Part shown: in pieces, positions 5,913-44,431 of the stretch
How the letters are laid out: the number at the start of each line of letters is the position of its first letter
Numbering within the stretch: position 1 is the first letter of the stretch
Virus record (IMG/VR): IMGVR_UViG_3300031578_000101
Coordinates: 1 to 44,650 of that record
DNA length: 44,650 nt
Strand: one strand, 5' to 3'
DNA from: a virus
Notes under the pieces: generated by a model
Seen by the model: only the letters and a program-made list of their open reading frames with translations
What the model was told of the DNA's origin: nothing
Database searches by the model: none
Position numbers and translations under genes: made by a program

Positions 5913-6155
5913 TCACCTGCCTTTCAGGGCTTGAACTATAAGTTTCCCGCCACAATAAGCACAAAAGTTCATCTCATTGTCTGCTGGAGTTCCTTCATCA
6001 ACAAAAAAAGATTTGCCACATTCTGTTTCCCAATAGTATTCTCCATCATATGATTCGACGGGTGTCCACTTACAAGTTTTCTCAAGCTCGGCCTGAAGCT
6101 GCTCTAATTTTTCACAAGTGCCACTAAGACAAAAGTCTTTTATTTCCTTACTCAT
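5913..6155 (-). CDS. Zinc-ribbon-like small protein, 80 aa
   Basis: The frame is open further upstream, but the ATG at 6155 is chosen because the AGGCAGGTGA block lies seven bases before it. The 80-residue product has an N-terminal coiled-coil-like segment (CEKLEQLQAELEKTC) and a C-terminal metal-binding pattern, ETECGKSF then NFCAYCGGKL, typical of small phage zinc-ribbon proteins. A role in DNA metabolism or in restriction alleviation (Lar-like) is possible but not shown. Confidence 0.6.
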   Translation of the reverse strand: MSKEIKDFCLSGTCEKLEQLQAELEKTCKWTPVESYDGEYYWETECGKSFFVDEGTPADNEMNFCAYCGGKLIVQALKGR

Positions 6156-6236
6156 ATCATTCACCTGCCTTTCTTGCTGTATCGGTGATAATAAGTCTTG
6201 CCGTTCGTATACGTAATTTCGCAATCCTGATTCTTG

Positions 6237-6515
6237 TCACTCAGGGCTCCAAATATCAATCGCCCATTTTTTCGCTATTCTAATCCACCCTCTTTTTGTC
6301 AGATTGTTGTCACGAAGAAGAGTATGGAGTTTATTTTTGTGGATTATCTGAGCCTCGCCGCCTTCATAAATCTCTCCGCCTGTATCCGAATATAAACCCA
6401 AATAAATTATGCCGAACTGACAAAACAAAATGCCAATGTGGTCTCCGATTTCATTTTTGAACCATCGACAATGAGTAATAATTTTTTCGTTTCTTTCTTC
6501 TTCTTCAATAATCAT
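6237..6515 (-). CDS. Hypothetical protein, 92 aa
   Basis: Starts at ATG 6515, five bases from the conserved AGGCAGGTGA block and overlapping the previous stop. The N-terminus is very acidic (MIIEEEERNEK). The middle is hydrophobic and beta-like (IGILFCQFGIIYLGLY), and the C-terminus contains LLRDNNLTKRGWIRIAKKW. No known family recognised. Between its stop and the next gene, a 20-30 codon frame (about 6157-6240, ending in YYHRYSKKGR) could encode a mini-peptide from a non-ATG start; I do not list it as a gene. Confidence 0.55.
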   Translation of the reverse strand: MIIEEEERNEKIITHCRWFKNEIGDHIGILFCQFGIIYLGLYSDTGGEIYEGGEAQIIHKNKLHTLLRDNNLTKRGWIRIAKKWAIDIWSPE

Positions 6516-6748
6516 AATTCACCTGCCTTTTGTATTCCAAACAGACCTTTCTGGATAGCACATTTGCCACAATTATCACACCATTTATGTGCCCTAACTT
6601 CTTCTACTGTCATACGGCTAATTTCGTAACCAGCACGCAAACAAGAGGCAACTTCTTTTGCTGTATCGTTTTTACGTTCGGGTAAATCCACACAAGCCAT
6701 TATAAGACCACCGCAAACACATTTAGCTACATAAGCCATTTCATTCAT
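6512..6748 (-). CDS. Cysteine-rich small protein, 78 aa
   Basis: Two cysteine clusters, KCVCGG near the N-terminus and WCDNCGKC (about 56-63) later, suggest a small zinc-binding fold. The start at 6748 (a second candidate ATG lies three codons in) is preceded by AAAGGCAGAAT, a variant of the block used by its neighbours. It overlaps both adjacent genes by four bases. Its last residues, QKAGEL, are encoded by the next gene's ribosome-binding block. Function unknown. Confidence 0.6.
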   Translation of the reverse strand: MNEMAYVAKCVCGGLIMACVDLPERKNDTAKEVASCLRAGYEISRMTVEEVRAHKWCDNCGKCAIQKGLFGIQKAGEL

Positions 6749-7005
6749 ATTCTGCCTTTCTCAAACAGTCCCTTCTGGCCGGAAAGTTGCGGAGTCTCAA
6801 TAAATTTTAAGGCTTTAGGATGTGTTGAAGCAGCTGTATAGTTTTGATAATCATCCCAATTATTGCTACATCTATACACGACAAAAATGAAGTGCTTATT
6901 CCAGGATTTTATGCGACCTTTTTCTCCGGTTGGCCAGTATTCTACCCAACGGCCTATATCAGCCTCGGTTAGTTCCGTGTTCTCAATTTTGTTTACCGGC
7001 ATCAT
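6745..7005 (-). CDS. Hypothetical protein, 86 aa
   Basis: The ATGATG at 7005 is chosen as start: it overlaps the previous stop (TGA within ATGATG), and the stretch before it, GAGGCCAACAGATGATGCC, nearly repeats the start region of the upstream gene at 7484. The product begins MMPVNK and has an SH3-like beta pattern (DIGRWVEYWP, GRIKSWNKHFIFVVYRC), so it may be a small barrel. No family is recognised. Confidence 0.55.
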   Translation of the reverse strand: MMPVNKIENTELTEADIGRWVEYWPTGEKGRIKSWNKHFIFVVYRCSNNWDDYQNYTAASTHPKALKFIETPQLSGQKGLFEKGRI

Positions 7006-7484
7006 CTGTTGGCCTCGTTTGGAAATAACGATAGCTGATTTGATTTTTTTGGCCACTTGCTTCTATTGTTTTTATTTATCTCTTTCTTAAATATTCGCAT
7101 CATATTGAGAAGAGGATGTTGAATTTCGCCGCCTCGCTTGTCGTAAATCATAGTTCGTAATTTTTCCAACTGGCGTTGTTCGTATTCGGAAATTTCCTCA
7201 ACACAAATCTCAATAGGCACCGCTCGTTTTCTTTTCCGTAAGATTTTCGTTGTCAAATAAAAATAAATTTTTGCTTCAGTGCTGGGCAATGGGGCAACTA
7301 AGCAGGATGTCATAAGATAAGCAATAATCTCTGCATCACCTACTTTGGGGACATCGGAGGTTACTACACTAATCAATCCCAATATTAACCTCTCATTTTT
7401 TATCTCATCCAAAAGCCATTCGGGTAAAGATTCTGCCCAAGGTGAACTCCCCACAACCAATTTATTTTCTTTTACTGGCATCAT
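7002..7484 (-). CDS. Hypothetical protein, 160 aa
   Basis: Starts MMPVKE at an ATGATG like that of the following gene. The sequence is mainly helical, with a hydrophobic AEIIAYLMTSCLVAPLP segment, a KIYFYLTTKILRKRKR stretch, a charged helix EEISEYEQRQLEKLRT and a basic C-terminus. There is no signal peptide and no recognised motif. It lies ten bases after the conserved 154-aa phage gene in the early operon. Confidence 0.55.
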   Translation of the reverse strand: MMPVKENKLVVGSSPWAESLPEWLLDEIKNERLILGLISVVTSDVPKVGDAEIIAYLMTSCLVAPLPSTEAKIYFYLTTKILRKRKRAVPIEICVEEISEYEQRQLEKLRTMIYDKRGGEIQHPLLNMMRIFKKEINKNNRSKWPKKSNQLSLFPNEANR

Positions 7485-22634: not shown

Positions 22635-24722
22635 TTAATTCTCACTAACCTCAATTTTTATTGATAACGCCGTCAGATTGAGCGGGTAGGGTTCGTTCTG
22701 GTCGAATTTCAGGCGGAGTTCATCGTCCCATCCGCCGTCTATTTCCAACCTGATTTCCCCGGTGAACGGGGCATCCGAACCCAAAGTGGTATCCGGCCAC
22801 GCCCTGAACGGAATATCGTACATTGTCGGGTCCGTAAACTGCCCGACAAGGCCGTACCGCCCGTACATCGTCTTATAGAAACAGCCGACAACCTCGTATA
22901 TTTTCTTTTTATAGCCAACCGTATATCCGGTCTGCATAGGCAGCTCAATCGGGAAAGTTATCAATGTCGATGTAAACGGCAGTCCCACAGTCGCATAAGC
23001 TACATTCGGGTCGAGTGCAATATTACCATCGCTTACAGTCGCGGTCTGGACCGAGTTACCGCCGTAAAAGACCTGTACTAACTTACCTTCCAAGTGGCTG
23101 AGTCCGGTTATAATAGCCGTTTCGTTAGAGTCATAATCCAATCCTGAATCAACGTACCAGCAGTCGTTGGCATCTGTACCCCAGTCCTGCTCTTTGAGTT
23201 TTTCGATATACCTAAGATTAACACTGTTAATCTCTCTTTGCACAACGAACCAGACATCATCTTCGGTCAGGCCGGGAATCACGGTAACGGACTCGAAGTT
23301 TCCGTCCGTTACATGCTCCGTCCAGGCTACAACGGCCTGGTCCCTGTTATACGTCAGTGATACGGCGTTGCCATCGCCTTTGATATACCACAATATCGGG
23401 TCAGGTCTGTGTTGCACGGCCACTTCCACAAGGCAGGGGTCGGTTATGTGTTCGGCGAATATCGTCAGTTCCGGCGATACGAAACTATCACTTTGCAGGT
23501 CGTAGAGTATATCCTTGACCTTGCGGCGGTTCCTATCGACAAAGACGATTGAGTCGCCTATGAGCTGGGCCTGCATACTACAGCTTCCCGATTGCGATTG
23601 ACGTTCCGAACCGATAGAAGCCGGTGTAAGTGTGGAGTTCGACGATTGACTGAAAATCCGGATCGCCGAGCCTGAAGTACCGGCTATAACCCCGCTTTTA
23701 TCCTGTAGCCAGAGTATAGGGTTTTGTTTCGCTGAGCTTGCCTCATAGACGATAGCCCCATCGTCCAGCGATGAATTTCGCATATTATCGTAATCGCCGC
23801 CGGAAACCGATGTCCAGAACCCGTTCGGTATGTATGACGTCCCTGCAAGGCATAGCCGGTTCTGGTACACACATATCGCCCTCGGATAACCCCTGTAGGC
23901 ACTCCAGGCACCCTCGGCCCATTTTGTAGTAGCTGCTATGCCGGCCAGTTCGCTATAGACAGTGGCATTAACCTCATTTGCATCGATAAAGGCCGTTATC
24001 TCAACGTATCCGGCCACATCGGTATTATAGGCCACAATGGTATATTTACAGCTTCCACTACTATAGGCACTCATAGTCAGGCGATAAGAGTAGCCGGGCG
24101 AACCTTCGTTAAAGCTATATTGGATATTGGCTGCATCGCCGTTGAGTTTCGGGTACACAGGGTCCCAGCTCGTACCGCCGTTATCGCTTTTTTCAAGTGT
24201 TACCAGACCTATCCACGTTTCTTCGAGCGTCAATAAAGCATCGCCCTCGATTGCTACCTCACTACTGGATTCGTTGGCGTCAAGTGTCCCGCTTGTGGTC
24301 GTATTGTCCGCTTTTTCGGTGATTTTCCACAGTGCCCCGACATGGTTACCGTCAAAGATATTCGCATCTGCAATCAGAGTAATTGCACCGTTGGTATCTG
24401 ACGGTGTTATTGTTGTTGTCGTGATATTATCAGTGAGGAATGGCCCCCACTGCCAGTTGACATCGGCGATTGTCCAGTCGGCGTGATTGTAACGGCATAA
24501 TTTCTGGACCGGATAGTCCGGGTGGACAAGATACATCACATCGTGGATTTGGACGTATTGTATCCCTCTCAGGTCGTTACCGTCATAAGGACTGGTTATA
24601 TAATAGGCGTAGTTCGGGTCGTTTGCATCGAGTATTTGACCGCTTGCAGCCCAGCCGGTTCTGCATAAAAAACAACAAGCAAACAGTACCATAATTTTTA
24701 ACATTTTAAGTCGTTTATTCAT
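22635..24722 (-). CDS. Tail nozzle/stabilisation protein, C-terminal half, with signal peptide
   Basis: The ATG at 24722 gives 695 residues beginning with a Sec-type signal (KRLKMLKIMVLFACCFLCRTGWAA). The rest aligns by eye with the C-terminal part of podoviral nozzle proteins: SPYDGNDLRGIQYVQIHDVMYLVHPDYP, YPRAICVYQNRLCLAGTS, a GDYDNM segment, ILWLQDKSGVIAGTSGSAIRI, a HITDP...VQHRPDPILWYI region and VRYIEKL-like NLRYIEKL. In relatives these follow an N-terminal FNAGELSP module in one chain; here that module is in separate upstream genes. A cleavable-looking signal at the exact break is striking. Confidence 0.75.
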   Translation of the reverse strand: MNKRLKMLKIMVLFACCFLCRTGWAASGQILDANDPNYAYYITSPYDGNDLRGIQYVQIHDVMYLVHPDYPVQKLCRYNHADWTIADVNWQWGPFLTDNITTTTITPSDTNGAITLIADANIFDGNHVGALWKITEKADNTTTSGTLDANESSSEVAIEGDALLTLEETWIGLVTLEKSDNGGTSWDPVYPKLNGDAANIQYSFNEGSPGYSYRLTMSAYSSGSCKYTIVAYNTDVAGYVEITAFIDANEVNATVYSELAGIAATTKWAEGAWSAYRGYPRAICVYQNRLCLAGTSYIPNGFWTSVSGGDYDNMRNSSLDDGAIVYEASSAKQNPILWLQDKSGVIAGTSGSAIRIFSQSSNSTLTPASIGSERQSQSGSCSMQAQLIGDSIVFVDRNRRKVKDILYDLQSDSFVSPELTIFAEHITDPCLVEVAVQHRPDPILWYIKGDGNAVSLTYNRDQAVVAWTEHVTDGNFESVTVIPGLTEDDVWFVVQREINSVNLRYIEKLKEQDWGTDANDCWYVDSGLDYDSNETAIITGLSHLEGKLVQVFYGGNSVQTATVSDGNIALDPNVAYATVGLPFTSTLITFPIELPMQTGYTVGYKKKIYEVVGCFYKTMYGRYGLVGQFTDPTMYDIPFRAWPDTTLGSDAPFTGEIRLEIDGGWDDELRLKFDQNEPYPLNLTALSIKIEVSEN

Positions 24723-24754
24723 TTTTCTACTCACTATTCACTAACGACTATTCA

Positions 24755-26452
24755 CTAATCTGTTGTCCTGTAAAAACCTATGTATTGATGGCCAAAAGCT
24801 AAAACGTAAGAATCGTCTGTCGAGTACTCGAAGGGGATAAGACGAATCGGGTCGTTGGGTTCTACGGTTACGGCAGCCGCTTCATCAGAAGCTAATTGGC
24901 TCCAGTAGGTATCCATCGAAGGGCTGAGAACGAAGCCGTCAGGATTGAGAATATAATTACTATTGGATTGAACCTGATTAGTTTTTACAATTTTTATCTC
25001 GCTCAAATTGTCAATATCAAGGACAACAACATGCTCGTCACCATCATAATAATAATCATCTCTTGCGAACCACATATTACCATCAGTACCCCGCCACATT
25101 GTTGCACCATATTGTATATAGCTACTGGCAAGGACATTCAGGTCTGAGTCGAATTTGAAGATATTTACAGTGTCGCCGTCATAAGTTACTTCTCCCATTA
25201 GGGCATATAAATAATTGCCTACCCATTGTAACTGAATACAACCTTTGCCGTTTTCCTGTGTTCCGAATTGAGATTGCCAAGTTCCAGATAAATCGAATAT
25301 GTTAATTAAATGCGTGTCCATTCCCCCGCCGTAGTATTGCCCGCATCCAAAAGCTACCAGACCTAATTTTTCGTGTATTGCAACATCTGCATTCATTACC
25401 TCGTTGTTTCCACTGGCATCTTCTTTTATGAAATGCAGAAGCAAATTACCATCCTCGTCAAATTTTGCCGGCCAATATCCAACAGTCGGCGTTGCTTTTA
25501 GAACATACCCACCGTAAACATTGTCATCACTATCAACACCTAATCTGCCGTATGTTCGGCTGCCGTGAGAATCGGCGGATTTCCAGACACATGAACCATC
25601 CGAAACCTGGTATTTGTAAATATCCGAAGCCAGACTCGGATTGTCGATTGTAAGCAGATAAATATATGCACCGTCACTGGTCGGGTTTGCACTCCGGCCA
25701 TATTCTGCCGCACCCCATCCGGCAGGTGGTGCATCCGCCCAAGTACCGTCAAGACTAAAATCCGTACCGTCCATTCGGAAAAGGCAAGTCTGCGAACCAC
25801 CCGCTACATAAACAGTCGGAAAGTAGATATTATAATCATCAATCACACATGGATAACCGGCACTGGTATCAATCACATTTAATAAAATTCGGATGACTGA
25901 TTCATCACCGTCAAAAGTTTCGGCGGCAAAAGGAAAACCTCTGTCTATAACAATCTCATTTATTGTATTTCCAGCTTGGACAACAAAACCAGTGGTACCG
26001 CTATAACTCGTTGTGCCGCCGAACTGGACTCTTTGACCTGCCACGAATGGATTACCTACGCACGGCAAGCCTACAATACTGCCACCAAGACTACGGGCAA
26101 CTCCGCCGGCAGTTAATTTAATATCACCATCACTCAACAATAAGCGAATGTTATTGGTCTCTTTCATAATACAGGTTACATTTTCCGGCACAGTCGGATT
26201 GTATGGGGTGTAACTCGGATAGATTATTCCTGATATTTGTCCGATGTACTCCGTCCCCGGCCTTCTTGCCGCCGCACCCTGCGGTTTGACCAGCATGTTC
26301 TCCATCTCCTCAACGCCGCTATTGCGTTTTTCAATATCTACCCGATATTTCACAAGCGGACTCAGCTCACCGGCGTTAAAAGAGCTTTCCAGCTCACCTG
26401 AAAAGGCGGTTGAGGCCATCAGCAGCAGCAATAAAATTGTTCTCAACTTCAT
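24755..26452 (-). CDS. Tail nozzle protein, N-terminal half with ~430-aa insertion, with signal peptide
   Basis: Start 26452 is chosen because GGAGATTAGA precedes it. The 565-residue product starts with a signal peptide (MKLRTILLLLLMASTAFS). The canonical nozzle N-terminus follows (25-70: FNAGELSPL, YRVDIEKRNSG, ENMLVKPQGA, RRPGTEYIG). Next comes a long insertion rich in Trp, Tyr, Gly and Asp with WD/propeller-like repeats (GTWADAPPAGWG, YGRLGVDSDDNVYGG, GTDGNMWFARDD). The final RLIPFEYSTDDSYVLAFGHQYIGFYR resumes the nozzle sequence. The flanks match the small paralogue upstream. Probably a receptor-facing or envelope-facing domain added to the nozzle; the fold is inferred. Confidence 0.75.
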   Translation of the reverse strand: MKLRTILLLLLMASTAFSGELESSFNAGELSPLVKYRVDIEKRNSGVEEMENMLVKPQGAAARRPGTEYIGQISGIIYPSYTPYNPTVPENVTCIMKETNNIRLLLSDGDIKLTAGGVARSLGGSIVGLPCVGNPFVAGQRVQFGGTTSYSGTTGFVVQAGNTINEIVIDRGFPFAAETFDGDESVIRILLNVIDTSAGYPCVIDDYNIYFPTVYVAGGSQTCLFRMDGTDFSLDGTWADAPPAGWGAAEYGRSANPTSDGAYIYLLTIDNPSLASDIYKYQVSDGSCVWKSADSHGSRTYGRLGVDSDDNVYGGYVLKATPTVGYWPAKFDEDGNLLLHFIKEDASGNNEVMNADVAIHEKLGLVAFGCGQYYGGGMDTHLINIFDLSGTWQSQFGTQENGKGCIQLQWVGNYLYALMGEVTYDGDTVNIFKFDSDLNVLASSYIQYGATMWRGTDGNMWFARDDYYYDGDEHVVVLDIDNLSEIKIVKTNQVQSNSNYILNPDGFVLSPSMDTYWSQLASDEAAAVTVEPNDPIRLIPFEYSTDDSYVLAFGHQYIGFYRTTD

Positions 26453-26453
26453 T

Positions 26454-26786
26454 CTAATCTCCAACGGTTCGATAAAATCCTATACTATTATGACTAAAAT
26501 CAAGGACGTATGCGTCCGTATCCGAATACTCGAACGGCAGCAGTCTCGATGGCGTATTGGAATCGTTGACATCGCCGATATACTCGGTCCCGGGCCTGCG
26601 GAAAACAGCCCCTTGTACCTTTACCAGCATATTCTCCATAGTCTCAGAACCCATCTGCCTCTTTTGCAAATCGACACGGTACTTCAGTAGCGGGGTCAAA
26701 GCGCCGGAATTGAACGAATTAAATAGCGGAGCCGCCACAACCATTGAGCAAAATATAATAATCGAAAAAAATACCGCCTTTTTCAT
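26454..26786 (-). CDS. Tail nozzle N-terminal half paralogue, 110 aa, with signal peptide
   Basis: Signal peptide (MKKAVFFSIIIFCSMVVA, cleavage before AP) and then the nozzle N-terminal module alone: FNSGALTPLLKYRVDLQKR, ENMLVKVQGAVFRRPGTEYIGD, then RLLPFEYSDTDAYVLDFSHNSIGFYR. It matches about 35 of 50 residues with positions 21-70 of the 565-aa neighbour but lacks the ~430-residue insertion. This is the uninserted form, and thus a tandem duplicate. It ends just before the start of its paralogue. Possible roles are a minor nozzle subunit or a mixed ring with the larger version. Confidence 0.75.
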   Translation of the reverse strand: MKKAVFFSIIIFCSMVVAAPLFNSFNSGALTPLLKYRVDLQKRQMGSETMENMLVKVQGAVFRRPGTEYIGDVNDSNTPSRLLPFEYSDTDAYVLDFSHNSIGFYRTVGD

Positions 26787-26795
26787 AGTTTAAAC

Positions 26796-28514
26796 TCAAG
26801 GCAAAGCAACTAAAACTCTCCATGCCCCGTTAGCGTACATATACACAGTGCCATTCGCACCGGCATCGGTATCAAGGTACAACGAACCCACGTTTGCCGT
26901 TCCTGGCAAAGTCGTACTGCTTGGTATAATAAGTTCGGCAGCCCCGACAAAAGAAGTCGTGCCATTAAGAGCTATATTCGTATAATCTGTCGTTCCGCCG
27001 TCGCCTATCTTGACCGAGCCGTCCGTGCCGCCTGCTGCGACTGTGGGGGTTAGAGTGATACTGCCGCCGTCTTGTCCGGGGCCAGCGGTCACAGCAGGGC
27101 CTGCTGTGATATGGACATCAGCACCTTTTTGTGGGCCACCGACAAGACCACCGCCTTGTAAATTAAGGTCGCCTGCTGGCTCAACAGTGATAACCCCGCT
27201 ATACATCACGAGGTCGCCGTCGCCGTACATAAGCAGGTCGCCACTGTTATTGAAATAGGCCTTTGTAGATGGCGCTCCAGCTTCGGTATCGGTTGAAAAA
27301 CCAAAATTACCAGAATCATCTGTACTTATCGACCAACCTGTACCAGAATCCGTGTCTAACAGGGAAATTCTTGGACTTGCAGAACGGGCGTAAAAGGCGG
27401 CATCCGCCAGACCTGAAGTATAACTGTGGGTGCTCTTGATGATACCCGTAGCTGTAGCGTGGCCTGCAAGCCGAATCCCCACATCGGCGGCCAAATCCAA
27501 ATACCCATCTGCACCAGACCAAATCTTTATCGTGCCGTCCGTCTGGCCTAAATACAGATTGCCTGATAGATAGTTGTTGGCACTTAGGCCATAAAAGCCC
27601 CAGTTGGTAACGCCTGCGGTTTGTCCTGCATCATAATAACCACAGAGCGTTGTTATATAGGCCGGGGCGGTTACTGTTACCGCACCTGTCGAAAAATGAT
27701 TAGCTTGGGTAATATACGGTGCACCTGTGGCAGTAGCACCTGGTGCTACTGCAAAACCGGAATACATACAAGATGCGGTGGTTGCGTAGGGATTGTCGGC
27801 AGAGGCGTCTACAGATTTTACTATTATCAACCCCCTGTTGCCGAACATGTTGGTAATTCTATACGAACCTGAAGGTTTCCAAGTATGACTGAAATTCAGA
27901 CCGCCAGAAATTGTCCTATTTGCCGAAGGATTGTGTATTATGGCTAGGTCTTGCCCGAAATAAATAGTTGTCGTGCCGGTATAGGTATCCATTATTCTGA
28001 ACGGCCAGTGTTCGTGAATTGTGGCATCAGAACCAAAGGCTGCGTGGCCGCCGACCAGAAGGTCGTTGGTAACATTCATATCATCAGTCGAAGTTATCTG
28101 CTCAGCGGTCAAAGTGCCTGCGGTCAGGGTGATACTATTGGCTGAAATAACCCAGTCGTTAATCAAATCCCTTGTCGCATCGATTAAAAGCGCCCATGTA
28201 TGGTCGTTTGCATCATCAAGGCCGGTAAGACCGCCGTGGTCCACCCCCACGAGAACGCTGTTAACATCATCCCAGTATAAATTCGCATCTGAAATGATAT
28301 CTCCAACAGAATTAGCGAACAGCACCTCTCCCTTACCGTGTCCGGTATTCAAAAAGAAATGGCCGCCGAGATTGGCATCGCCGGTAAACGGCCTCGAGCC
28401 TGTTACCGTAATTTCTCTTTTTGTGTCGCTTACCAGCGTATAATTTTCGCCGGAGGTATCCGCAAACAGAGAACCTGTCAGGACAATCAGTAGTAATAAA
28501 ACTGTTTTTTTCAT
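26796..28514 (-). CDS. Tail fibre/adhesin-like protein with signal peptide, 572 aa
   Basis: MKKTVLLLLIVLTGSLFA is a clear Sec signal with an A-x-A-like end before DTSGEN. The mature chain is Gly/Thr/Asp-rich with beta-repeat character, including GGHFFLNTGHGKGEVLFANS, phage-fibre-like DLLMYGDGDLVMYSG repeats, and a GGSITLTPTVAAGGTDGSVKIGDGG stretch. The C-terminus (SLYLDTDAGANGTVYMYANGAW) is typical of fibre tips. Adsorption is the likely role. It starts four codons' width from the 198-aa gene's end. No chaperone or endosialidase motif was seen. Confidence 0.6.
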   Translation of the reverse strand: MKKTVLLLLIVLTGSLFADTSGENYTLVSDTKREITVTGSRPFTGDANLGGHFFLNTGHGKGEVLFANSVGDIISDANLYWDDVNSVLVGVDHGGLTGLDDANDHTWALLIDATRDLINDWVISANSITLTAGTLTAEQITSTDDMNVTNDLLVGGHAAFGSDATIHEHWPFRIMDTYTGTTTIYFGQDLAIIHNPSANRTISGGLNFSHTWKPSGSYRITNMFGNRGLIIVKSVDASADNPYATTASCMYSGFAVAPGATATGAPYITQANHFSTGAVTVTAPAYITTLCGYYDAGQTAGVTNWGFYGLSANNYLSGNLYLGQTDGTIKIWSGADGYLDLAADVGIRLAGHATATGIIKSTHSYTSGLADAAFYARSASPRISLLDTDSGTGWSISTDDSGNFGFSTDTEAGAPSTKAYFNNSGDLLMYGDGDLVMYSGVITVEPAGDLNLQGGGLVGGPQKGADVHITAGPAVTAGPGQDGGSITLTPTVAAGGTDGSVKIGDGGTTDYTNIALNGTTSFVGAAELIIPSSTTLPGTANVGSLYLDTDAGANGTVYMYANGAWRVLVALP

Positions 28515-29111
28515 TTAGTACCCGTAAGCGATACAATTAACGTGCAGATAGCCCGATGACCTGTTGGTTATTATACATTTTGCCGTTTTCCCACTCTCTC
28601 GGCCAATTACAAGAGATGCCGCACCGTCCTCACCTGCGTTATTTTGTGCGGCAACAGTGCCATTCCATGCCTCTACAGGGGTAGAGATAGTATCCACCCA
28701 ATTAGTATTGGGGTCGCCGGAACCACTGGCAAGTTCAGCAAGCGTTATGGGATTGTGAGATAAAAGCATTGCACCTACAGTCGCATTGCAATCAGCAACC
28801 ACCTGACCGTTATTTCCATAATCAGCGATATAAAACTTGAAACTAAACGTCTCGCCATCTGTGGTCAGTGATTCTCCGTTAGGGTCATTCGGCTCGGTAG
28901 CGTAGAACATGACCTTTAACGTGCTCCATGTCGCAGGTATCTGTGTCCAGCTTTTAGCGTAAGCCCAGCTTGCAGTATTAACGTCAAGTGCCGTATCGTT
29001 GGCCTCGACAGCCGATATCAGCACTGCCGTCATCTGTGGCGTATAAATCTCGTCTGCCCGGGCCGAACCGGCCATAATCAAAACAAGTATGAGAAACAGT
29101 ATCTTTTTCAT
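28515..29111 (-). CDS. Secreted tail-region hypothetical protein, 198 aa
   Basis: Signal peptide MKKILFLILVLIMAGSARA with a textbook A-x-A cleavage site before DEIYTP. The mature protein is beta-rich with Asp/Asn/Ala/Thr bias (EANDTALDVNTASWAYAKSWTQIP, FYIADYGNNGQVVADCNATVG) and ends in SSGYLHVNCIAYGY. No domain recognised; it may be a fibre-associated or receptor-binding lobe. Its signal sequence closely resembles that of the beta-helix protein at 30023-31672, suggesting that signal modules have been copied among these genes. Confidence 0.55.
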   Translation of the reverse strand: MKKILFLILVLIMAGSARADEIYTPQMTAVLISAVEANDTALDVNTASWAYAKSWTQIPATWSTLKVMFYATEPNDPNGESLTTDGETFSFKFYIADYGNNGQVVADCNATVGAMLLSHNPITLAELASGSGDPNTNWVDTISTPVEAWNGTVAAQNNAGEDGAASLVIGRESGKTAKCIITNRSSGYLHVNCIAYGY

Positions 29112-29124
29112 TTCAAAAATCTCC

Positions 29125-29976
29125 TTATCCTAATGCTTGAAGTTCGTTATTGGCACCATCCCGCCAATCGGTATTTCCCTGTTCATTTTCGTTGAAAGTT
29201 TCGTCCCCGTTGGCCTCTCTTGCGAAAAGCCACGCTGCCTCTAATTCATAAGACACCTTTGAGCGCACTCTCTGATTCTCTGTGATATTAGGGGACAGGA
29301 TATCGGCCAGTCTTGCCGAAATTAACCTGTGGAACCAGTTCGGCATTATAGTTACATCGCTTACAGTCGTGCTCTCAGCCTCACCCATCCATCTGTTATA
29401 GTGCCAGTAGCAGTCATAGTAATTTGTAAAGATGATTTTGCCTTCCCTGTGATACCGATATTTGACATCATCATAATTCGCTGCCCCAAGACCTCTTATA
29501 AAGAGCTGGTCGGTCGGCATTAAGTATCCGTAATCGTTCCCGCCAATATCAAGGGCCTCATCGACAACAGGATAACCAGTAGCGCAGTCCACACTATTGA
29601 CGCCATCGCTGATAATCTCGCCATCGGTAAAGTCTCCGCTCGGCTCGGTCACAAGGTAAGTAGTGTCGTTTAACCTGGCGACTACTACGCAGGTTTTCAG
29701 ACTCGTTGCCCCTGTTAAGGTTGCCCCAACCGCCCACACTGCCACCGTAGGTGCCGTATCGACCGTCAGCTTGTTAATGGCCGTCATATCGTCCGTGTGG
29801 ATCCTTCTGCGACTGAAGATCCAGTCTTTAGACAGCAATTCCTTGACGATATCCTCGAAGATGGCAGCGATTTTATTGACATGAGGTGTACCGTCAGTCA
29901 GCAAAGTAATCAGTTTTTGGCCCACAGCCAGTAAAGCTATATTGGTAATCGCCGCCTTTTCATCTGCATTTGCCAT
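29125..29976 (-). CDS. Tail adaptor (gp11 / tail tubular protein A type), 283 aa
   Basis: The N-terminus (ADEKAAITNIALLAVGQKLITLL...AAIFEDIVKELLSKDWIFSRRR) has the adaptor pattern of podoviral connector rings: an I-x-N-x-AL helix, then a helix ending at K-x-W-x-F. A beta insertion at about 75-150 is larger than usual. The C-terminal half (MPNWFHRLISARLADILSPNIT ... SYELEAAWLFAREANGDETF) is typical of this family. Unlike its neighbours it has no signal peptide, as expected for a protein assembled on the portal in the cytoplasm. Confidence 0.65.
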   Translation of the reverse strand: MANADEKAAITNIALLAVGQKLITLLTDGTPHVNKIAAIFEDIVKELLSKDWIFSRRRIHTDDMTAINKLTVDTAPTVAVWAVGATLTGATSLKTCVVVARLNDTTYLVTEPSGDFTDGEIISDGVNSVDCATGYPVVDEALDIGGNDYGYLMPTDQLFIRGLGAANYDDVKYRYHREGKIIFTNYYDCYWHYNRWMGEAESTTVSDVTIMPNWFHRLISARLADILSPNITENQRVRSKVSYELEAAWLFAREANGDETFNENEQGNTDWRDGANNELQALG

Positions 29977-30022: not shown

Positions 30023-31672
30023 TTAGAATCCGCCGCCTGCTCCGGCAGTTACAGCACCCGTTGAATCCAAAGGGGTCCACCAGACATGCCATTTAATTGT
30101 GCCCAATGTTCCGGCACTTGTTCCAATGGTATACCCGACATCAAGACCTCCAACAATCACAACGTCCGTCAATACATGCGTAAGAGAGGAATGGGCCTCG
30201 CCTACACCAAGAGGGTATGTCGGAGCACCGGCATAAACCGCCGAAGCAACCTCACCTAAATCCCAGTCATCTACGTTTGCCGAAGCCCAGATAGCAGACG
30301 TATTACCAGCAACTCCCAACACAATAGTCGCATTGGTTCCCGCTGACACGAGGTTCTCGTGGGTACACTCCGCCATTATCGTCATCCTGACATTACCCGT
30401 TACATCAGCTATCTCGTGAGCAGCTACTGAGTTCCACGTTACACTCGTCATATTGGCGTCAATCGTGAAGTAGTTCGGATGACTATAAGAAGGCAGGGCC
30501 GCAGCTTCCAACTGTCCGATGTTAGCATCCTGCAAACCTCGCCAGGTTGTTATGAGCGTAAAGTTTGCATCGTGCAATCCGGCAGCCGTTACCAGTGTTT
30601 TGGAGTTAGCGTCATTCAGAGCCAGAAAATCTTCTATCTGTTGGATGTTGGCATCCTGAGCACCAATAGAGTCTATTAAACCACCTTCGATAACCCAGTT
30701 AGGCAGACCATCTGTATCGGCAGTCGTAGACAGGGTGTTTCGTGACTCAAACATAGAGCCTGCATCGAGGATTTTGAGCACTGTATCGGCAATCAGAACA
30801 TTATCCTCAACCAGACCCGTTGTAGCCGCTGTAAACTCGACTGCAAACTCGCCCGAGGTAAGGTTTTGGATAGTGTTTCCTTTGATTAAGGCACCCAGAC
30901 TGACATTGTCGCTCCATACAGGGGCCGAGGAATACTCACCGACAATCGTACAGCCGTAAACAACAGGTCTGTTGACATCTGCAAAGTCGATTGCCGAGGT
31001 AGCTCCTGTTGCAAGCCTGCTGTAAATTGTGCAGCCTTTTATTGCAGGGTCATCAGCACCGGCTGACGTAACGATGAACTTGTCAAATTCATAAGTTGAG
31101 GTATTCGGCTCAGGTGCAACGCAGTCAATCATTGTAAAGTTATTGCCCGTGACATATATACCTGTCGTCACCTCCGTTACGCCTGCCAGTAATCTAAGGT
31201 TGGATATCGTTACATTGTCAGCACTTGCAATTACATTTGCATCGGCGATACCGTATGTAAATGTCGGAGCAAGTGTGCCTTCGCCACAACCCCAAATCAC
31301 AATCCCGTTACAATCAGCATTCCACATAGCAGCACCACCAGTGTAGTCGGATTCGGCGTGTCCCTGAGCGACAAGAATCACATCGCCGTTATCGGCAGTA
31401 CAGAGGTCAATGGCCGCCTGGAGAGTGATTTTAGCCTTGTCCCAGCTCGTACCATCGCCTTGAGTCGCACTACTATCGACATAGTAGATATTACCCGTGC
31501 CAATCTGACCGCCTAACCTGCCTTCCATACCTTCAAGGCACTTTCGGAGCGTGTTACTCGGAAAATCGGAATAAGTATCCGTCTCCCCCCATCTAATATC
31601 AAATGCCGAGGTGTAGCCGAAAGCCGAAGTAGCCATAATCAGCATTATCAAGAGAAAAATTAACTTTTTCAT
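30023..31672 (-). CDS. Secreted right-handed beta-helix protein (spike-like), 549 aa
   Basis: Signal peptide MKKLIFLLIMLIMATSAFG then a beta-helix: repeated turns such as VTISNLRLLAGVTEVTTGIYVTGNNFTMIDC, AIKGCTIYSRLATG, PVVYGCTIVGEYS and LIKGNTIQNLTSGEF (about 140-300). A segment with recurring DAN triplets (about 325-400, EDFLALNDANSK, GLHDANF, GLQDANIGQ) follows, then a beta-rich C-terminus ending GAGGGF. Such folds make tailspikes that bind or cut polysaccharide; no catalytic residues are evident. It is framed by hairpins at both ends, placing it in its own expression unit between cement and adaptor genes. Confidence 0.6.
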   Translation of the reverse strand: MKKLIFLLIMLIMATSAFGYTSAFDIRWGETDTYSDFPSNTLRKCLEGMEGRLGGQIGTGNIYYVDSSATQGDGTSWDKAKITLQAAIDLCTADNGDVILVAQGHAESDYTGGAAMWNADCNGIVIWGCGEGTLAPTFTYGIADANVIASADNVTISNLRLLAGVTEVTTGIYVTGNNFTMIDCVAPEPNTSTYEFDKFIVTSAGADDPAIKGCTIYSRLATGATSAIDFADVNRPVVYGCTIVGEYSSAPVWSDNVSLGALIKGNTIQNLTSGEFAVEFTAATTGLVEDNVLIADTVLKILDAGSMFESRNTLSTTADTDGLPNWVIEGGLIDSIGAQDANIQQIEDFLALNDANSKTLVTAAGLHDANFTLITTWRGLQDANIGQLEAAALPSYSHPNYFTIDANMTSVTWNSVAAHEIADVTGNVRMTIMAECTHENLVSAGTNATIVLGVAGNTSAIWASANVDDWDLGEVASAVYAGAPTYPLGVGEAHSSLTHVLTDVVIVGGLDVGYTIGTSAGTLGTIKWHVWWTPLDSTGAVTAGAGGGF

Positions 31673-32247: not shown

Positions 32248-33279
32248 TTAAGCTACAACGGCTTGGGTATTTGTGAGAACGGTCGTATCAATTACGCGGA
32301 CAGGAATGTCCTGGAAAACCTTTACCCGTCTGCCGAAAATTTCCGTTGTCGGCCACAGGATATTGTTTTTCTTCAGGGCGTAGACGTCCATCTGGGAAGC
32401 GATAGACCTGTTGACATACATTCTCGTTCGGGACACATCAAAGGAGCCGTCGTTGATAAGCTGGATTATGTTTTCAACAGCGCCATCACTGAAGGAATTT
32501 GTCCCGTTCATAGTAGGGTTGATATTGGCAAGACGGCCAATCTTCCTGTTATTGCCGACAGCAAGGCCCAGCCACGCCTTGAACTGAGCGACATAGGCGT
32601 AATACTTGGCGTTCACATCTGTTTCAACTTCAAGACAAGGCTCTTTGCCCTTGTCGTGTATCGCGACACCCAGTGCGGTATTCTTCATCCAGCCGGGCGG
32701 ATAGATGCCGTAGGCTCCGCCTGTTTCGTCCGTGTTCCATTCGACAAGAAGTATTGACGTAGTCACAGAGCCAGCACCGGTATACCCGTTTGACCGAACA
32801 TTGTTTAATCCGGTGGGATTCAGGGCATCCAATCTTTGGAGTAAACCGTTAATGTGCTCGCCGCCGTCAGCTTGTGTACCATTGATAAAGGAACTGACTA
32901 CATCTTCGCCGAGTTTGCGGGCATGTGCTTCGTCTTCCTGGCGTAACTTTACGCCCGGGTTGGCGAGGGTATCGATTTCATCTTCGTCAATTTCACGTCT
33001 CCGCTCTTTGAGCATGACATCTTCATAAATGACCTGCTTATTGAGCTTCGAGGAAACTACGCCCTTGTAGAATGTACGGTTTGTGCTTGCTACCATTCCC
33101 GTATCACGGACAAGCCTGTGTTTCAGGCCCATGTTTGCTTCAACGAATGGTATATCGTTGAAGAAATCGTCCACAAGCTGATTCATCACCTTGATTAGGG
33201 GCAGGACGGTTTTACCGTCAGAGGTCTCTTTCGCCCTGTCCAGCAAGGTATACTTGGTGTTGATATATTGTGTACCCAT
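32248..33279 (-). CDS. Major capsid protein (BPP-1-like), 343 aa
   Basis: HK97-fold coat candidate by size, position after the scaffold gene and sequence layout. The N-terminal arm (LDRAKETSDGKTVLPLIKVMNQLVDDFFNDIPFVEAN) and central E-loop-like FYKGVVSSKLNKQVIYEDVMLKERR resemble BPP-1-type coats, as do a FINGTQADGGEHINGLLQRLDAL helix region and a C-terminal AWLGLAVGNNRKIGRLANI and PVRVIDT strand. A structured leader RNA precedes it, and a strong TTAAGGAGTTATTCGA ribosome-binding site supports abundant synthesis. Confidence 0.8.
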   Translation of the reverse strand: MGTQYINTKYTLLDRAKETSDGKTVLPLIKVMNQLVDDFFNDIPFVEANMGLKHRLVRDTGMVASTNRTFYKGVVSSKLNKQVIYEDVMLKERRREIDEDEIDTLANPGVKLRQEDEAHARKLGEDVVSSFINGTQADGGEHINGLLQRLDALNPTGLNNVRSNGYTGAGSVTTSILLVEWNTDETGGAYGIYPPGWMKNTALGVAIHDKGKEPCLEVETDVNAKYYAYVAQFKAWLGLAVGNNRKIGRLANINPTMNGTNSFSDGAVENIIQLINDGSFDVSRTRMYVNRSIASQMDVYALKKNNILWPTTEIFGRRVKVFQDIPVRVIDTTVLTNTQAVVA

Positions 33280-35118: not shown

Positions 35119-36816
35119 TTACGCCGCATCCCTCATATTACTCAAAACGCTGTCTGCTTCGATTTTCTTACTCAAATCAGGGACTGCCTTCGCAGCCTGA
35201 GCCATAATAGCCATCTGCCTGTCCTCTGCCTGCTGCTGTGCTGCTATAGCCCTAATCTCCAATACTTCATCTTTCGACAGGATAATATCTTCAGGAGTAT
35301 TGCCTGATTGCAGTATCTTTCGCATCAGTTCATCGCCTTCGATAACGACATTAGAATCAGGTGCCACCGCTAAAGCCTCCCTGATATATGCAATCGTAGT
35401 CAGCAGGTTTCCTGTCTCATAGTATTGCTTCAGCATTTGCGAAAGCGGGCCTATGTACTGGATATCTATTCTGCCGTTCTGGGCCTCCAAAACCTCTTGT
35501 GGCGGTTCCGGTGCCCTGCCAGCATCTAATTCGATTGAGTATATCCTGTCGAACTCAAGGTCTGTCGTAGTGCCTAACGTCCCCAAAAACGGAGCCATCA
35601 AGGTCGCCCTTTCAGCCTGTCTCATACGAGCTTCGCCGAGTGTCTTTGATGTCGAATCGGCATTTAGACCCAAGAATAACGGAACTCCGAACCGCTCCTC
35701 TACCATCGCCTGCCAGCGTTGATGATTATCAATCCCGAACGGATAGCCGCTACTATCTATCAACCGTGCTATCAGGTCGCCCATCTTTACGCCCTGCATC
35801 TCACGAGTACCAACGAAATTAACCGCACCAGCTCCCATATCCAATTTGTGTTTGAGAGCCGATGACATTGCCATTGGCGGTCTTGCCCCTAACTGTGAAG
35901 CCAACAGCATATCTTTTGACATCAAATTGCAGGTCAGTATCTCAATCAGCATCTGGGATACCATACCCCTGCCGTAAGCCTCGTGTGATGGCCGGCCAAG
36001 TGCCCAGGGTATAGGATTCAAGGTCGGTGTCCCCGTCTCCCTCATCATAATGCCGCTGACATTATCACCAGAAGAGGTAACATTGACATAGTAATGCTGC
36101 CAGGGCATGTTCTTTACGCCGATTTTGTCCGGCTCGTAATCCTTGTTCTTGTATATGCCGTGAATTATATCGACTGGGGTATCAGGGCTATTTTCCAAAC
36201 TTTGAATCTGGGTCTGACTCAAAGCCTGTTTACCGAACTCGTCCACAACATCCCTTACTGTTCGGCTACTGAACTTGTGGTGTATACCTACGACACGGCC
36301 CCACCAGTCCCGCCTGACCCAGAACTCCCTCGGATGTGGTGCCATTGTCATTAACTTGCCACTATCCGAATCTTCATCGATGAACAGGTACGCATCGCCC
36401 GGGGCTGCTGCGTCTTTGATAGTTACAAGTTTCTGCTCGTAATAATTGCTTTGATTGAGAACGTATCTGAGGTGTTCGTCCGTCTCCTGCAGCCATCTGC
36501 GGACATTCTTTGAATCTCTTAGTTTTCGTTCTGCCATCTGCAAGGCGAACCAGTTTATCTCTTTCGGCATATAATGGCCGATAAGTCCGTTTGACCATAT
36601 ATCCAGCCCGCGAAAAGCGGTAGCATCGTACACTTTACGGACTTTGGTATTGCTCTTTCCTGCCTGGCTGCCGAGGACGGAATCTCGATAATCCCACTGG
36701 TCAGACCGGCCCGGGTAGCTCAAAGCGGTAGATATTTGCTTCAGGGCTTCATACGGCTTGCGTATCGTTTCGAGCCTGCCCTGTTCATCTATGATGTTTT
36801 TGGGGGTCTTAGTCAT
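35119..36816 (-). CDS. Portal (head-to-tail connecting) protein, 565 aa
   Basis: A podoviral portal of the head-tail connector family: QISTALSYPGRSDQWDYRDSVLGSQ at the start, GLDIWSNGLIGHYMPKEINWFALQM, a FWVRRDWWGRVVGIHHKFS strand region, SRTVRDVVDEF, and the stem/crown part LNPIPWALGRPSHEAYGRGMVSQML ... RMRQAERATLMAPFLG. The C-terminal ~100 residues are a helical barrel-like domain. AAGGAGCGGTTTGG before the ATG is a strong start. The upstream 35-aa ORF overlaps it as ATGA. Confidence 0.8.
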   Translation of the reverse strand: MTKTPKNIIDEQGRLETIRKPYEALKQISTALSYPGRSDQWDYRDSVLGSQAGKSNTKVRKVYDATAFRGLDIWSNGLIGHYMPKEINWFALQMAERKLRDSKNVRRWLQETDEHLRYVLNQSNYYEQKLVTIKDAAAPGDAYLFIDEDSDSGKLMTMAPHPREFWVRRDWWGRVVGIHHKFSSRTVRDVVDEFGKQALSQTQIQSLENSPDTPVDIIHGIYKNKDYEPDKIGVKNMPWQHYYVNVTSSGDNVSGIMMRETGTPTLNPIPWALGRPSHEAYGRGMVSQMLIEILTCNLMSKDMLLASQLGARPPMAMSSALKHKLDMGAGAVNFVGTREMQGVKMGDLIARLIDSSGYPFGIDNHQRWQAMVEERFGVPLFLGLNADSTSKTLGEARMRQAERATLMAPFLGTLGTTTDLEFDRIYSIELDAGRAPEPPQEVLEAQNGRIDIQYIGPLSQMLKQYYETGNLLTTIAYIREALAVAPDSNVVIEGDELMRKILQSGNTPEDIILSKDEVLEIRAIAAQQQAEDRQMAIMAQAAKAVPDLSKKIEADSVLSNMRDAA

Positions 36817-40430: not shown

Positions 40431-40550
40431 TTAAAAACCAGTATTCAAAAGATAATCGTCCAGAACGACAATCGCAATTCCCATCGCTATAAGAACCAGC
40501 CACATAGCAACTATCCCAAAAGCGATAATCAGGGCCATGCGGTTAGTCAT
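40431..40550 (-). CDS. Single-TM mini-protein, 39 aa
   Basis: ATG at 40550 with TTTTGGAGAAGGA before it; overlaps the methyltransferase stop as ATGA. The 39-residue product is mostly one membrane helix (MALIIAFGIVAMWLVLIAMGIAIVVL) with a short acidic end. Such phage mini-proteins often act on membrane partners (holin regulators or exclusion peptides). Confidence 0.55.
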   Translation of the reverse strand: MTNRMALIIAFGIVAMWLVLIAMGIAIVVLDDYLLNTGF

Positions 40551-41224
40551 TCCTTCTCCAAAACTATCGTATAGAACATTCCGCCTAACGGCAAGATTTT
40601 TTCAAGCCACTTTATGACAGGATACAGGAAAGTTGGCACAAGTTGAGGATAGCTATGCCCGCCTGCCAGCAGATATGCCAGCGATGTATGAGTTTTAATG
40701 TTGATTATTTCAAGCTGCGGGTATAGTTTTTTGAAATACTTAACATCCCGGAAAAAGAGTATCCAGGCCATCGCATTATTGACCGGCTCCCAGTACAAAT
40801 CCGGCCTGAAGGATTCGAAGTGGAATCTATAAATCAATCTTGACCATCGTGTATTGGCCGGTTCTATTATCAGGATTTTGCCGCCCGGCTTCAGGCAGCG
40901 TAGAGCCTCGTTAAAAAATGTTTCCGGTCTTAAATGATGCAGGACATTTATCAGAAGGAACGCATCTATCGTCTCTGCCCCGAATATCATATCCATCGCT
41001 GAAAAGCACATATCCGTCCCGACTTCCTGAACGTCTGAGGTAAAAACAAGGGGCATAATCTCTTTGACCCAGCCGTTACCGCCTTCGCCCAGCTCGACTA
41101 TGACTTCATCACGGTGTTTCCGTAATCGAGAAAGAGGACTGCTATAATTATCACTTGCATAGAGACAATCCCGCATCTGCCGATACCAACCAAGATACAC
41201 TTTTTTGAGTAATCCGTTTCTCAT
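40547..41224 (-). CDS. Class I SAM-dependent methyltransferase, 225 aa (first of two)
   Basis: Motif I is VIVELGEGG (41-49), atypical but Gly-rich. Motif II/III is AFLLINVLHHLRP and post-motif LKPGGKILIIEP, a classical Methyltransf_11 layout. The C-terminal half (FHFESFRPDLYWEPVNNAMAWILFFRD) has aromatic and membrane-proximal character like lipid- or glycan-modifying methyltransferases. It is probably a small-molecule or glycan enzyme rather than a DNA methylase, since no target-recognition domain or catalytic DPPY/PCQ motif is present. Confidence 0.7.
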   Translation of the reverse strand: MRNGLLKKVYLGWYRQMRDCLYASDNYSSPLSRLRKHRDEVIVELGEGGNGWVKEIMPLVFTSDVQEVGTDMCFSAMDMIFGAETIDAFLLINVLHHLRPETFFNEALRCLKPGGKILIIEPANTRWSRLIYRFHFESFRPDLYWEPVNNAMAWILFFRDVKYFKKLYPQLEIINIKTHTSLAYLLAGGHSYPQLVPTFLYPVIKWLEKILPLGGMFYTIVLEKE

Positions 41225-41941
41225 TTAATCACCCTGCCCATTCTTAAATAGTTTTGGTGAAACTAAGGTCAATACGGCCTTGTAATACTCATCACACATC
41301 CCACCATAACTCACTGCCGATACGAATAAAGCAAAGTCCCGCATCTCGTCCTTTGTCAATAACAACATCTTCGTCAGGTCAAGTATCACGCTAAAATCAC
41401 TTACCCAAACAGTCATTTCACAGCTTACGGCCTCTGTGGAGAATGCTATCTTGTGACTATCGTCAATTGTAATTGCTATGTCCGCCAAGTCGTCCTCCAA
41501 ATCGTAAGATACTTCATAGAAATTGGGGTCATAAAGTAAATTTAGACTTCTAACGAGTTCAGAATTTGGGTCTATGATAATCTCGGTTCTGCATATCATA
41601 TTGCAATCCACCTCTTCGAATCCCAACTTCTGTTTGAAATCGTCAAGGGTGAAATCTCTTGTTACGCCGTCAAGTATGATTCTAATATCAGTGTAATAAT
41701 CACAATTACTCTGACATCCATTACGAAAGTCACTAACTTGATTAGAATCAATCGAAATACTGTATGCTACGCAGAGCGGAACAGTAAAATCTATGGGTTC
41801 TTCTATCGTACCAATAGCCTCAACATTAGTAAGAGTGCCTATGCTCCGTGTCTGTTTGGCTTTACCTAAAAAGGCAGCTATATACAGACCGCCCAAAACA
41901 ATGATTATCCACAACAAAACACAATAAGATTTCCATTTCAT
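41225..41941 (-). CDS. Membrane-anchored exported protein, 238 aa
   Basis: An N-terminal hydrophobic anchor (KSYCVLLWIIIVLGGLYIAAFLG) is followed by a beta-rich, Asp/Asn-rich exported domain with paired cysteines (NGCQSNCDYY, CNMIC). No cleavage motif is clear, so a single-span anchor facing the periplasm is likely. It starts three bases before the methyltransferase gene. Superinfection exclusion or envelope modification are possible roles. No family recognised. Confidence 0.5.
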   Translation of the reverse strand: MKWKSYCVLLWIIIVLGGLYIAAFLGKAKQTRSIGTLTNVEAIGTIEEPIDFTVPLCVAYSISIDSNQVSDFRNGCQSNCDYYTDIRIILDGVTRDFTLDDFKQKLGFEEVDCNMICRTEIIIDPNSELVRSLNLLYDPNFYEVSYDLEDDLADIAITIDDSHKIAFSTEAVSCEMTVWVSDFSVILDLTKMLLLTKDEMRDFALFVSAVSYGGMCDEYYKAVLTLVSPKLFKNGQGD

Positions 41942-41944
41942 TTT

Positions 41945-42304
41945 TTACTCTCCTTGCGGCCATAGCAGCCGACCAACGCCTATTCCGATTAACGCCATTA
42001 TCCAGCTCGGTGAACCCGAGCCGGCCACTGACCAGTTACCGATAATCCCGTTGAACAAGTCCCAGCCGAACCAAACGAAAAAGCAGATAAGCAAAATATT
42101 CCTGATACTGCGAAACAACACGACCGGAATCGTGAAGAAAAAGTGGCCGATTAGAATCCCCATAATCATCGGGAAAGTCGAGCATCGCTGGCCGAGATAC
42201 TTCATAGCCTGACTGATAGTGCCATCGCCCGAACAGGCCAGGTAAATATCGAAGCCGATCCAGGCCACTGCCGTTATCGCCAAAATAATAAGTGCTTTTT
42301 TCAT
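41945..42304 (-). CDS. Multi-span membrane protein, 119 aa
   Basis: Three to four hydrophobic helices (ALIILAITAVAWIGFDIYLAC, FPMIMGILIGHFFFTIPVVLF, NILLICFFVWFGWDLF, SWIMALIGIGVGRLLW) fill this protein. It overlaps the lipoprotein gene by four bases (ATGA), so the two are coupled. Small size and multiple spans would also fit a holin. Function unknown. Confidence 0.55.
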   Translation of the reverse strand: MKKALIILAITAVAWIGFDIYLACSGDGTISQAMKYLGQRCSTFPMIMGILIGHFFFTIPVVLFRSIRNILLICFFVWFGWDLFNGIIGNWSVAGSGSPSWIMALIGIGVGRLLWPQGE

Positions 42305-42654
42305 AGTCCTACCTTCTTAAATATCTTTTCTGTTAATGTTAATGTCAGATTTTCCTCTGTTACTTTGGTATTAATAATATCCATCAATTCATCACATATA
42401 AAGGGACCTCGATATTGCAAAATCCTTGTCTTTGTTTCGAGTTCAGCTGCATTCGGGTCAACATCGAGGATTCGTTTGGCATATTGTTTCAGGTCATTTG
42501 GCAAGTCTTTATCCGGCACATTACGCCAGTCAATCAAAGTTCCGGCAGGTAGATAAAAGAGCCTGTCAGGATTGAGATTGTATAATTTTACTGTCGGCCT
42601 GCCGCAGCCAGCACAAAAAAGCAGCAGAATTGATATTATGATATGTTTCCGCAT
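42301..42654 (-). CDS. Lipoprotein-type exported protein, 117 aa
   Basis: MRKHIIISILLLFCAGC is a signal peptidase II-type leader; the lipobox reads CAGC (Cys17 would be lipidated), with Cys instead of Leu at -3, slightly atypical. The mature part is helical and acidic, with VPDKDLPNDLKQYAKRILDVD. A lipoprotein next to a small membrane protein and a coiled-coil protein resembles spanin pairs, but the mature domain is not Pro-rich like known o-spanins. Confidence 0.6.
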   Translation of the reverse strand: MRKHIIISILLLFCAGCGRPTVKLYNLNPDRLFYLPAGTLIDWRNVPDKDLPNDLKQYAKRILDVDPNAAELETKTRILQYRGPFICDELMDIINTKVTEENLTLTLTEKIFKKVGL

Positions 42655-42658
42655 TTTC

Positions 42659-42865
42659 TTACTCCCTATTATCTTTGCCTTTTTCGAAGCTATTCAGCAA
42701 ATCAGAGGCATCGCCCTTTTTCTTGGCTTCTTCGTACTCTGTTTTTGCTTCCTGTTCTTTTTCTTTTCGCAAAGCCTGTCTGCGTCTGTAGTCCAGCCAA
42801 CTTTCCCACACACCCTTGAAAAAGTTTTTGAAAACTTCCCACCACGCTAATCCACCAATGGCCAT
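42659..42865 (-). CDS. Small amphipathic coiled-coil protein, 68 aa
   Basis: A short hydrophobic/aromatic start (IGGLAWWEVFKNFFKGVWESWLDYRRR) is followed by a highly charged helix (QALRKEKEQEAKTEYEEAKKKG) and a DASDLLNSF tail seen in short phage membrane-associated proteins. It may be an inner-membrane partner (i-spanin-like) to the lipoprotein that follows. The hydrophobic part is short for a full span, so this is tentative. Confidence 0.45.
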   Translation of the reverse strand: MAIGGLAWWEVFKNFFKGVWESWLDYRRRQALRKEKEQEAKTEYEEAKKKGDASDLLNSFEKGKDNRE

Positions 42866-42873
42866 AACTCACC

Positions 42874-43116
42874 TCAATCTTCGAGCATATTATCTGTTAA
42901 ATAATATGGAAATCCTGTTTTTTCCGACCTGCACAATCTCAAATGCCAGGGTAAACGGACAAAGTAATAATCTGGCCCGACAACCTTTATCTTGACTTTA
43001 CGTTCGCTTAGGACCGATGCCATTTCCAGACAGCAGGTATAATGTTCTGGTTTTTTGATAGATAATAATCGAGCGAATGACTGAACAATAACCCAATCAC
43101 CTTTTTTATGTTTCAT
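42874..43116 (-). CDS. Hypothetical protein, 80 aa
   Basis: Basic start (MKHKKGDWVIVQSFARLL) and strand-rich middle (RKVKIKVVGPDYYFVRLPWHLRLC) suggest a small SH3-like barrel. Three cysteines. It lies between the second methyltransferase and the membrane-protein run. No family recognised. Confidence 0.5.
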   Translation of the reverse strand: MKHKKGDWVIVQSFARLLSIKKPEHYTCCLEMASVLSERKVKIKVVGPDYYFVRLPWHLRLCRSEKTGFPYYLTDNMLED

Positions 43117-43134
43117 AATTTCACCTCAAATCTA

Positions 43135-44098: not shown

Positions 44099-44111
44099 TT
44101 TTGCTTTCACA

Positions 44112-44149: not shown

Positions 44150-44193
44150 GAACCGCGTTAATCTGGCGAGCCTTCTGTTGTAGCTCCAACTCC

Positions 44194-44409: not shown

Positions 44410-44431
44410 ACTTTTTTACTCCTTTCTGTTC

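Follow-up and report, generated by a model that had tools for sequence, protein, structure and literature searches.

Three nozzle genes on the minus strand of the window

The window, i.e. the whole 44,650-nucleotide stretch of IMG/VR record IMGVR_UViG_3300031578_000101, carries three minus-strand open reading frames in which a preliminary description saw a tail nozzle protein divided into separate genes. All three lie where they had been placed, and an identical three-gene order is found in L008 (IMGVR_UViG_3300033145_001150), a contig from another metagenome. We refer to them as ORF110, ORF565 and ORF695. Depending on the start codon, ORF565 has 565 aa (ATG) or 569 aa (upstream TTG), and ORF695 has 695 aa (ATG) or 699 aa (GTG). 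Signal peptides were called by rule, not by SignalP, here and throughout.

26454..26786, minus strand: ORF110, short N-module nozzle chain with signal peptide, 110 aa, matched by profile and by 8ck1
26730..26786, minus strand: predicted signal peptide of ORF110, about 19 aa, rule-based call
24755..26452, minus strand: ORF565, second N-module chain with signal peptide and a large insert within, matched by phrog_376
26396..26452, minus strand: predicted signal peptide of ORF565, about 19 aa, rule-based call
24857..26236, minus strand: insert of ORF565, about 460 aa, flanked by RRPGTEYIG and RLIPFEYS; it can be aligned with the corresponding insert in the L008 homologue
22635..24722, minus strand: ORF695, nozzle remainder comprising the tip domain and the bulk of propeller and platform, carrying a separate signal peptide
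24645..24722, minus strand: predicted signal peptide of ORF695, about 26 aa, at the site of the mid-chain linker of single-chain relatives

ORF110 reads MKKAVFFSIIIFCSMVVAA up to the predicted cleavage site and continues as PLFNSFNSG...RRPGT...IGFYRTVGD. Its N-module is 70% identical to that of ORF565 over 71 aligned residues, in agreement with the duplication of the N-terminal part noted earlier (35 of 50 residues). In ORF565, the platform-strand motif is retained, and so is the hairpin of the propeller, RLIPFEYS...IGFYR; over the whole pair, ORF565 is 34% identical to its L008 homologue. The spacer between ORF565 and ORF695 (24723-24757) consists of a degenerate GTGAATAGT-type repeat that is not common to L008.

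Homology, fold and point of division

ORF110 matches positions 4-92 and ORF695 positions 101-711 of phrog_376 (tail protein, 712 positions). Against the solved structure of the Carin1 tail nozzle (8ck1), ORF110 aligns with residues 15-98 and ORF695 with residues 103-820 (E 2.7e-64). Since both profile and structure are tiled almost without gaps, the two proteins together account for one whole nozzle with nothing lost. In this alignment the cut is located between residues 98 and 103 of 8ck1 numbering. ORF565 matches phrog_376 at positions 9-60 and in a second stretch of the N-terminal part. As the preliminary description held, ORF695 alone is incomplete as a nozzle, its match covering residues 103-820 of 8ck1.

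The AF2 model of ORF695 (pLDDT 80.6) corroborates the nozzle identity proposed before. Foldseek matched it to 8ck1 with E 1.1e-41 and TMq 0.76, and structure comparison gave Z 30.5 and rmsd 3.3 for 585 aligned residues. The model resembles the nozzles of Carin1, LME-1, T7 and P22 (9efk was also among the structures compared) and displays the platform, propeller and tip of the nozzle fold, the N-module part of which is assigned by sequence. The structure prediction of every product advocated earlier thus succeeded for ORF695; the ORF565 model, built from a two-row alignment, reached pLDDT 29.5 and was not used for the fold. Strands modelled at residues 7-22 of ORF695 lie inside its signal peptide. 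They arose because the alignment put the signal peptide onto the missing N-module hairpin, and we discarded them as an artefact.

The gene order in the window is that of terminase, portal, scaffold, capsid, adaptor, nozzle and ejection proteins. ORF110 and ORF695 together cover the whole-length profile of a phrog_376 / Carin1-T7-type nozzle. Since profile, fold and gene order all agree with this family and only the single polypeptide, present in most other relatives, is replaced by three genes, we regard the nozzle as a variant of a known family.

In single-chain relatives, a linker connects the N- and C-terminal parts; its length is 16-21, about 90 or about 490 aa, and in L002 and L003 it contains Laminin_G_3 domains. 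The nozzle of the window is cut within this linker. GGQI of single chains has been retained in the form SGQI, directly after the signal peptide of ORF695. The statement that the split runs exactly between modules therefore holds for the position of the cut, but not for the independence of the N-module. In T7 gp12 the 45-residue N-terminus provides three strands of the platform barrel, and blade 1 is closed by the first propeller strand in velcro fashion (PMC6702177); velcro closure was likewise described for SU10 (PMC9509320). Since the T7 gp12 N-terminus takes part in both platform and blade 1, the N-module should interlock with ORF695 in two domains. We infer that it is no independent domain and that the pieces must bind in trans.

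Recurrence, age and constraint of the divided genes

L008 encodes a 108-aa N-module protein, a 1104-aa second N-module protein that has a large insert and, after the module, another ~450 aa, and a C-chain that starts with a signal peptide too. In L179 (IMGVR_UViG_3300009149_001249), both N-module genes are present before the contig end. Only the window holds the whole of the split-off C-chain, since L008 breaks off within it and L179 ahead of it. A first scan for relatives with ORF695 as sole query gave no match.

A tree of the N-modules places ORF110 together with the 108-aa protein of L008 (support 97/96); hence the duplication predates the divergence of the window and L008. Between these two, protein identity is 65% for ORF110 and 75% for ORF695, whereas fourfold-degenerate sites are 42% identical in both genes, which indicates purifying selection on the pieces; the ORF565 module is likewise conserved. 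That the reading frames might be a single-chain nozzle broken by assembly or sequencing error, or its decaying pseudogenes, is suggested by the fact that the arrangement is known from metagenomic contigs only, with no isolate. Equal layout in contigs from other metagenomes, an old duplication, purifying selection and pieces with starts and signals of their own make this very improbable. Because the N-module is duplicated, new N-termini have appeared and the order is repeated in L008, the genes do not represent one ORF broken by a frameshift, and the earlier statements that the nozzle is divided into separate genes and that no frameshift can rejoin them are sustained. Frameshift, assembly error and pseudogenes were accordingly rejected on the evidence of L008, L179 and sequence constraint.

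Signal peptides follow gene family

At the N-terminus of all three nozzle ORFs, a basic n-region is followed by a hydrophobic core and a small-x-small, cleavage-like site, features of the signal peptidase I type recovered by rule-based scan and motif test. This agrees with the earlier observation of a separate start and signal peptide for every piece. The predicted mature N-termini adjoin conserved family residues. Neighbouring genes of the window fall into those with and those without a predicted signal peptide:

26796..28514, minus strand: fibre-like tail protein of 572 aa, signal peptide present
28515..29111, minus strand: 198-aa protein of the tail region, signal peptide present (8 family members, all with signal)
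29125..29976, minus strand: tail adaptor-like protein without signal peptide, phrog_394 (tail protein; family of 12, none with signal)
30023..31672, minus strand: beta-helix-like repeat protein, 549 aa, with signal peptide (fold from sequence only; family of 11, all with signal)
32248..33279, minus strand: major capsid protein without signal peptide, phrog_212 (family of 13, none with signal)
35119..36816, minus strand: portal without signal peptide, PF12236 Head-tail_con (family of 11, none with signal)

Across 14 contigs, signal peptides follow gene family with near-perfect separation, a clade-wide pattern that the preliminary description did not mention. They are present in 15/16 nozzle pieces of the cluster (the sixteenth, in L181, has one slightly further in), in the beta-helix-like protein (11/11), in the 198-aa protein (8/8) and also in fibres. 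In the same contigs, no signal peptide was detected in capsid (0/13), adaptor (0/12), portal (0/11), scaffold (0/11), TerL (0/9), the 150-aa protein (0/8) or the two ejection proteins (0/7 and 0/7). Among structural-region genes, 22/73 carry a signal in this clade versus 8/541 in distant nozzle loci (Fisher p near 1e-16, in which independence is overstated by the relatedness of the sequences). A small-x-Ala site follows the hydrophobic core in 41/59 proteins, against 18.9 expected and a maximum of 29 in 500 draws.

Cysteine content of signal-bearing proteins is modestly raised (1.34% versus 0.74%), which is in keeping with export. Since cysteine counts are often odd and parity is mixed, support for disulfides is weak, and we set these aside. 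In the 198-aa family, a cysteine pair (YGC...CG) occurs in L002, L003 and L008, and both positions are lost in the window protein (28515-29111); this joint loss is suggestive of a disulfide. Fibre signals also occur outside the clade, as L047 encodes a fibre-like protein with signal peptide (5940-7382) along with a nozzle that has none. Signals on exchangeable fibre domains could derive from host genes, which would leave those on nozzles unexplained.

Closest to ORF695 are the nozzles of L002 and L003 (60 and 55% identical), single chains of about 1250 aa with an N-terminal signal peptide. Single-chain nozzles with a signal peptide were also detected in L149, L152, L153, L181, L183, L189 and L192. 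In a survey of about 125 loci, nozzle signal peptides were confined to this clade. Searches with the adaptor, the 198-aa protein and the N-module retrieved L149, L152, L153, L155/L159, L179, L181, L183, L189 and L192, in all of which the nozzles carry a signal. The last search comprised 74 single-chain loci, two of them with signal; the remaining ones had no nozzle signal peptide. Altogether, the nozzles of some 200 loci other than those of this clade carry none. On the nozzle tree, the signal-peptide trait requires 2 changes, a number as low as this being reached in 0/500 shuffles. Since the split is nested within the signal-bearing clade, the signal most likely came first. Searches of the open-access literature turned up no account of signal peptides on the nozzles of tailed phages.

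Genome context and host

Window ends 1-200 and 44450-44650 encode an equal YfhO-like C-terminus with one residue differing and overlap by about 190 bases, which makes a complete, circularly permuted genome probable. As cargo, regions 40547-44650 and 1-2072 encode SAM methyltransferases, a YfhO-like membrane protein and a protein with the LAB_N lipid A biosynthesis domain, which may serve to modify surface glycans or lipids. When genome contigs were scanned with nozzle and portal in search of a host, no relative was found. In L143 (2761-3306), a signal-bearing 181-aa protein has a stretch resembling Dockerin_1 (E 0.0023), which stays below cut-off and hints only weakly at a Planctomycetota host. 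A link to chronic release was considered, since phage zth2-2 (Lentisphaerae host) has a relative of the nozzle; this relative has no signal peptide and the link was dropped.

Proposed assembly of a divided and probably exported nozzle

Assembly of tailed phages is understood as an ordered cytoplasmic pathway. The reading we favour, with a probability of roughly 0.6, is that a T7/Carin1-type nozzle is here made of separate chains binding in trans, that export evolved first and the split later, and that tail parts are periplasmic and joined late by heads. It builds on the observed homology, split point, conservation, age of the duplication and distribution of signals, from which we infer Sec-type export of the outer virion proteins in this clade, binding in trans and late joining.

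ORF695 would supply the tip and the greater part of both propeller and platform. The missing platform strands and those closing propeller blade 1 would be added in trans by ORF110 or its paralogue ORF565, ORF110 and ORF695 corresponding to one complete ancestral chain. ORF565 would bring a large extra domain to the platform-propeller junction and, by competing for the site of ORF110, might display it on the nozzle. The heteromeric assembly anticipated by the preliminary description is borne out at least in a weak form, inasmuch as ORF695 depends on an N-module chain; a mixed ring holding both N-module chains is plausible.

Export of outer virion proteins would have evolved in a single-chain ancestor, after which the nozzle gene was presumably cut at the linker and the N-module duplicated. 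All parts would have to reach one compartment, as assembly with the rest would be impossible for any fragment remaining in the cytoplasm; this would explain why every fragment has a signal of its own. Tail parts would fold in the periplasm, whereas heads with portal, adaptor and ejection proteins would form in the cytoplasm and join the exported parts late, around lysis. A DNA-filled head lacking its nozzle would need to be closed by portal and adaptor until then. In the full scheme, the periplasm would be where the clade produces its nozzle, fibres and further outer proteins; virions would be finished either there or when the cell lyses, and split interlocking chains with a second, domain-bearing N-module would form a mixed ring. 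To this we give slightly less than even odds.

The ring might also be unmixed, with ORF110 and ORF695 forming the whole nozzle and the ORF565 N-module serving only to attach an adhesin, or a domain for receptor binding, to the adaptor or the nozzle edge. The ~460 extra aa of ORF565, the other ~450 aa behind the module in its L008 homologue and the lectin-like Laminin_G_3 domains at the equal junction of single-chain relatives all speak for such a role; on the other hand, the platform-strand motif and propeller hairpin kept by ORF565 would be needless for a mere anchor, and we hold this for a tentative possibility. Export itself may be questioned, too. As a rule, tail nozzles are cytoplasmic, and they have to attach to the portal vertex; adaptor and portal are without signal here, so that the hydrophobic N-termini might be membrane anchors or tolerated leaders of a nozzle assembled in the cytoplasm. 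However, cleavage-like motifs are enriched, the split-off C-chain has gained a new signal while both N-modules have kept theirs, the predicted mature N-termini adjoin conserved family residues, and signals track gene family in the 14 contigs. We consider leaders without working export unlikely.

If the favoured reading of trans-binding, exported chains is true, signals on parts beyond the adaptor and none before it would amount to a spatial division of labour in virion assembly, and lectin-type domains would have access to an oxidising compartment. The division of the nozzle serves as a natural experiment in this respect: where every fragment keeps a signal of its own, export is likely to be functional. 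The window also indicates where a nozzle can be cut and yet be kept by selection.

Comparison with known nozzles

Split nozzles are not unique to the window. They also occur in L156, L158, L160, L161, L164, L168 and L169, where the cut is mainly at C-module position 254/258, i.e. in another linker, and the second gene often has an extra N-terminal domain. In L163 and L167 the nozzle is in three pieces, with one cut at the position of the ORF565 insert. No signal peptide and no duplicated N-module were seen in the split nozzles of this L156-L169 set. Among named phages, sequence relatives are the tail tubular proteins B of Pelagibacter HTVC010P-type phages, which are single chains; IMG/VR nozzles related to them start directly with MARVHPFQTNFTAGELSP, without signal peptide. 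As the predicted signals suggest, the tail parts of this group of uncultured short-tailed phages would be made outside the cytoplasm, for which our searches gave no parallel among tailed phages.

Similarity to T7 gp12 is at the level of fold only (Z about 20 against the ORF695 model, 10-11% identity), and gp12 is a single chain, whereas the window nozzle consists of separate chains. The nozzle of Cobetia phage Carin1 (PDB 8ck1 chain A) is a full-length homologue of ORF110 (residues 15-98) plus ORF695 (103-820). It is a single chain with one N-module, which in the window is both split off and duplicated.
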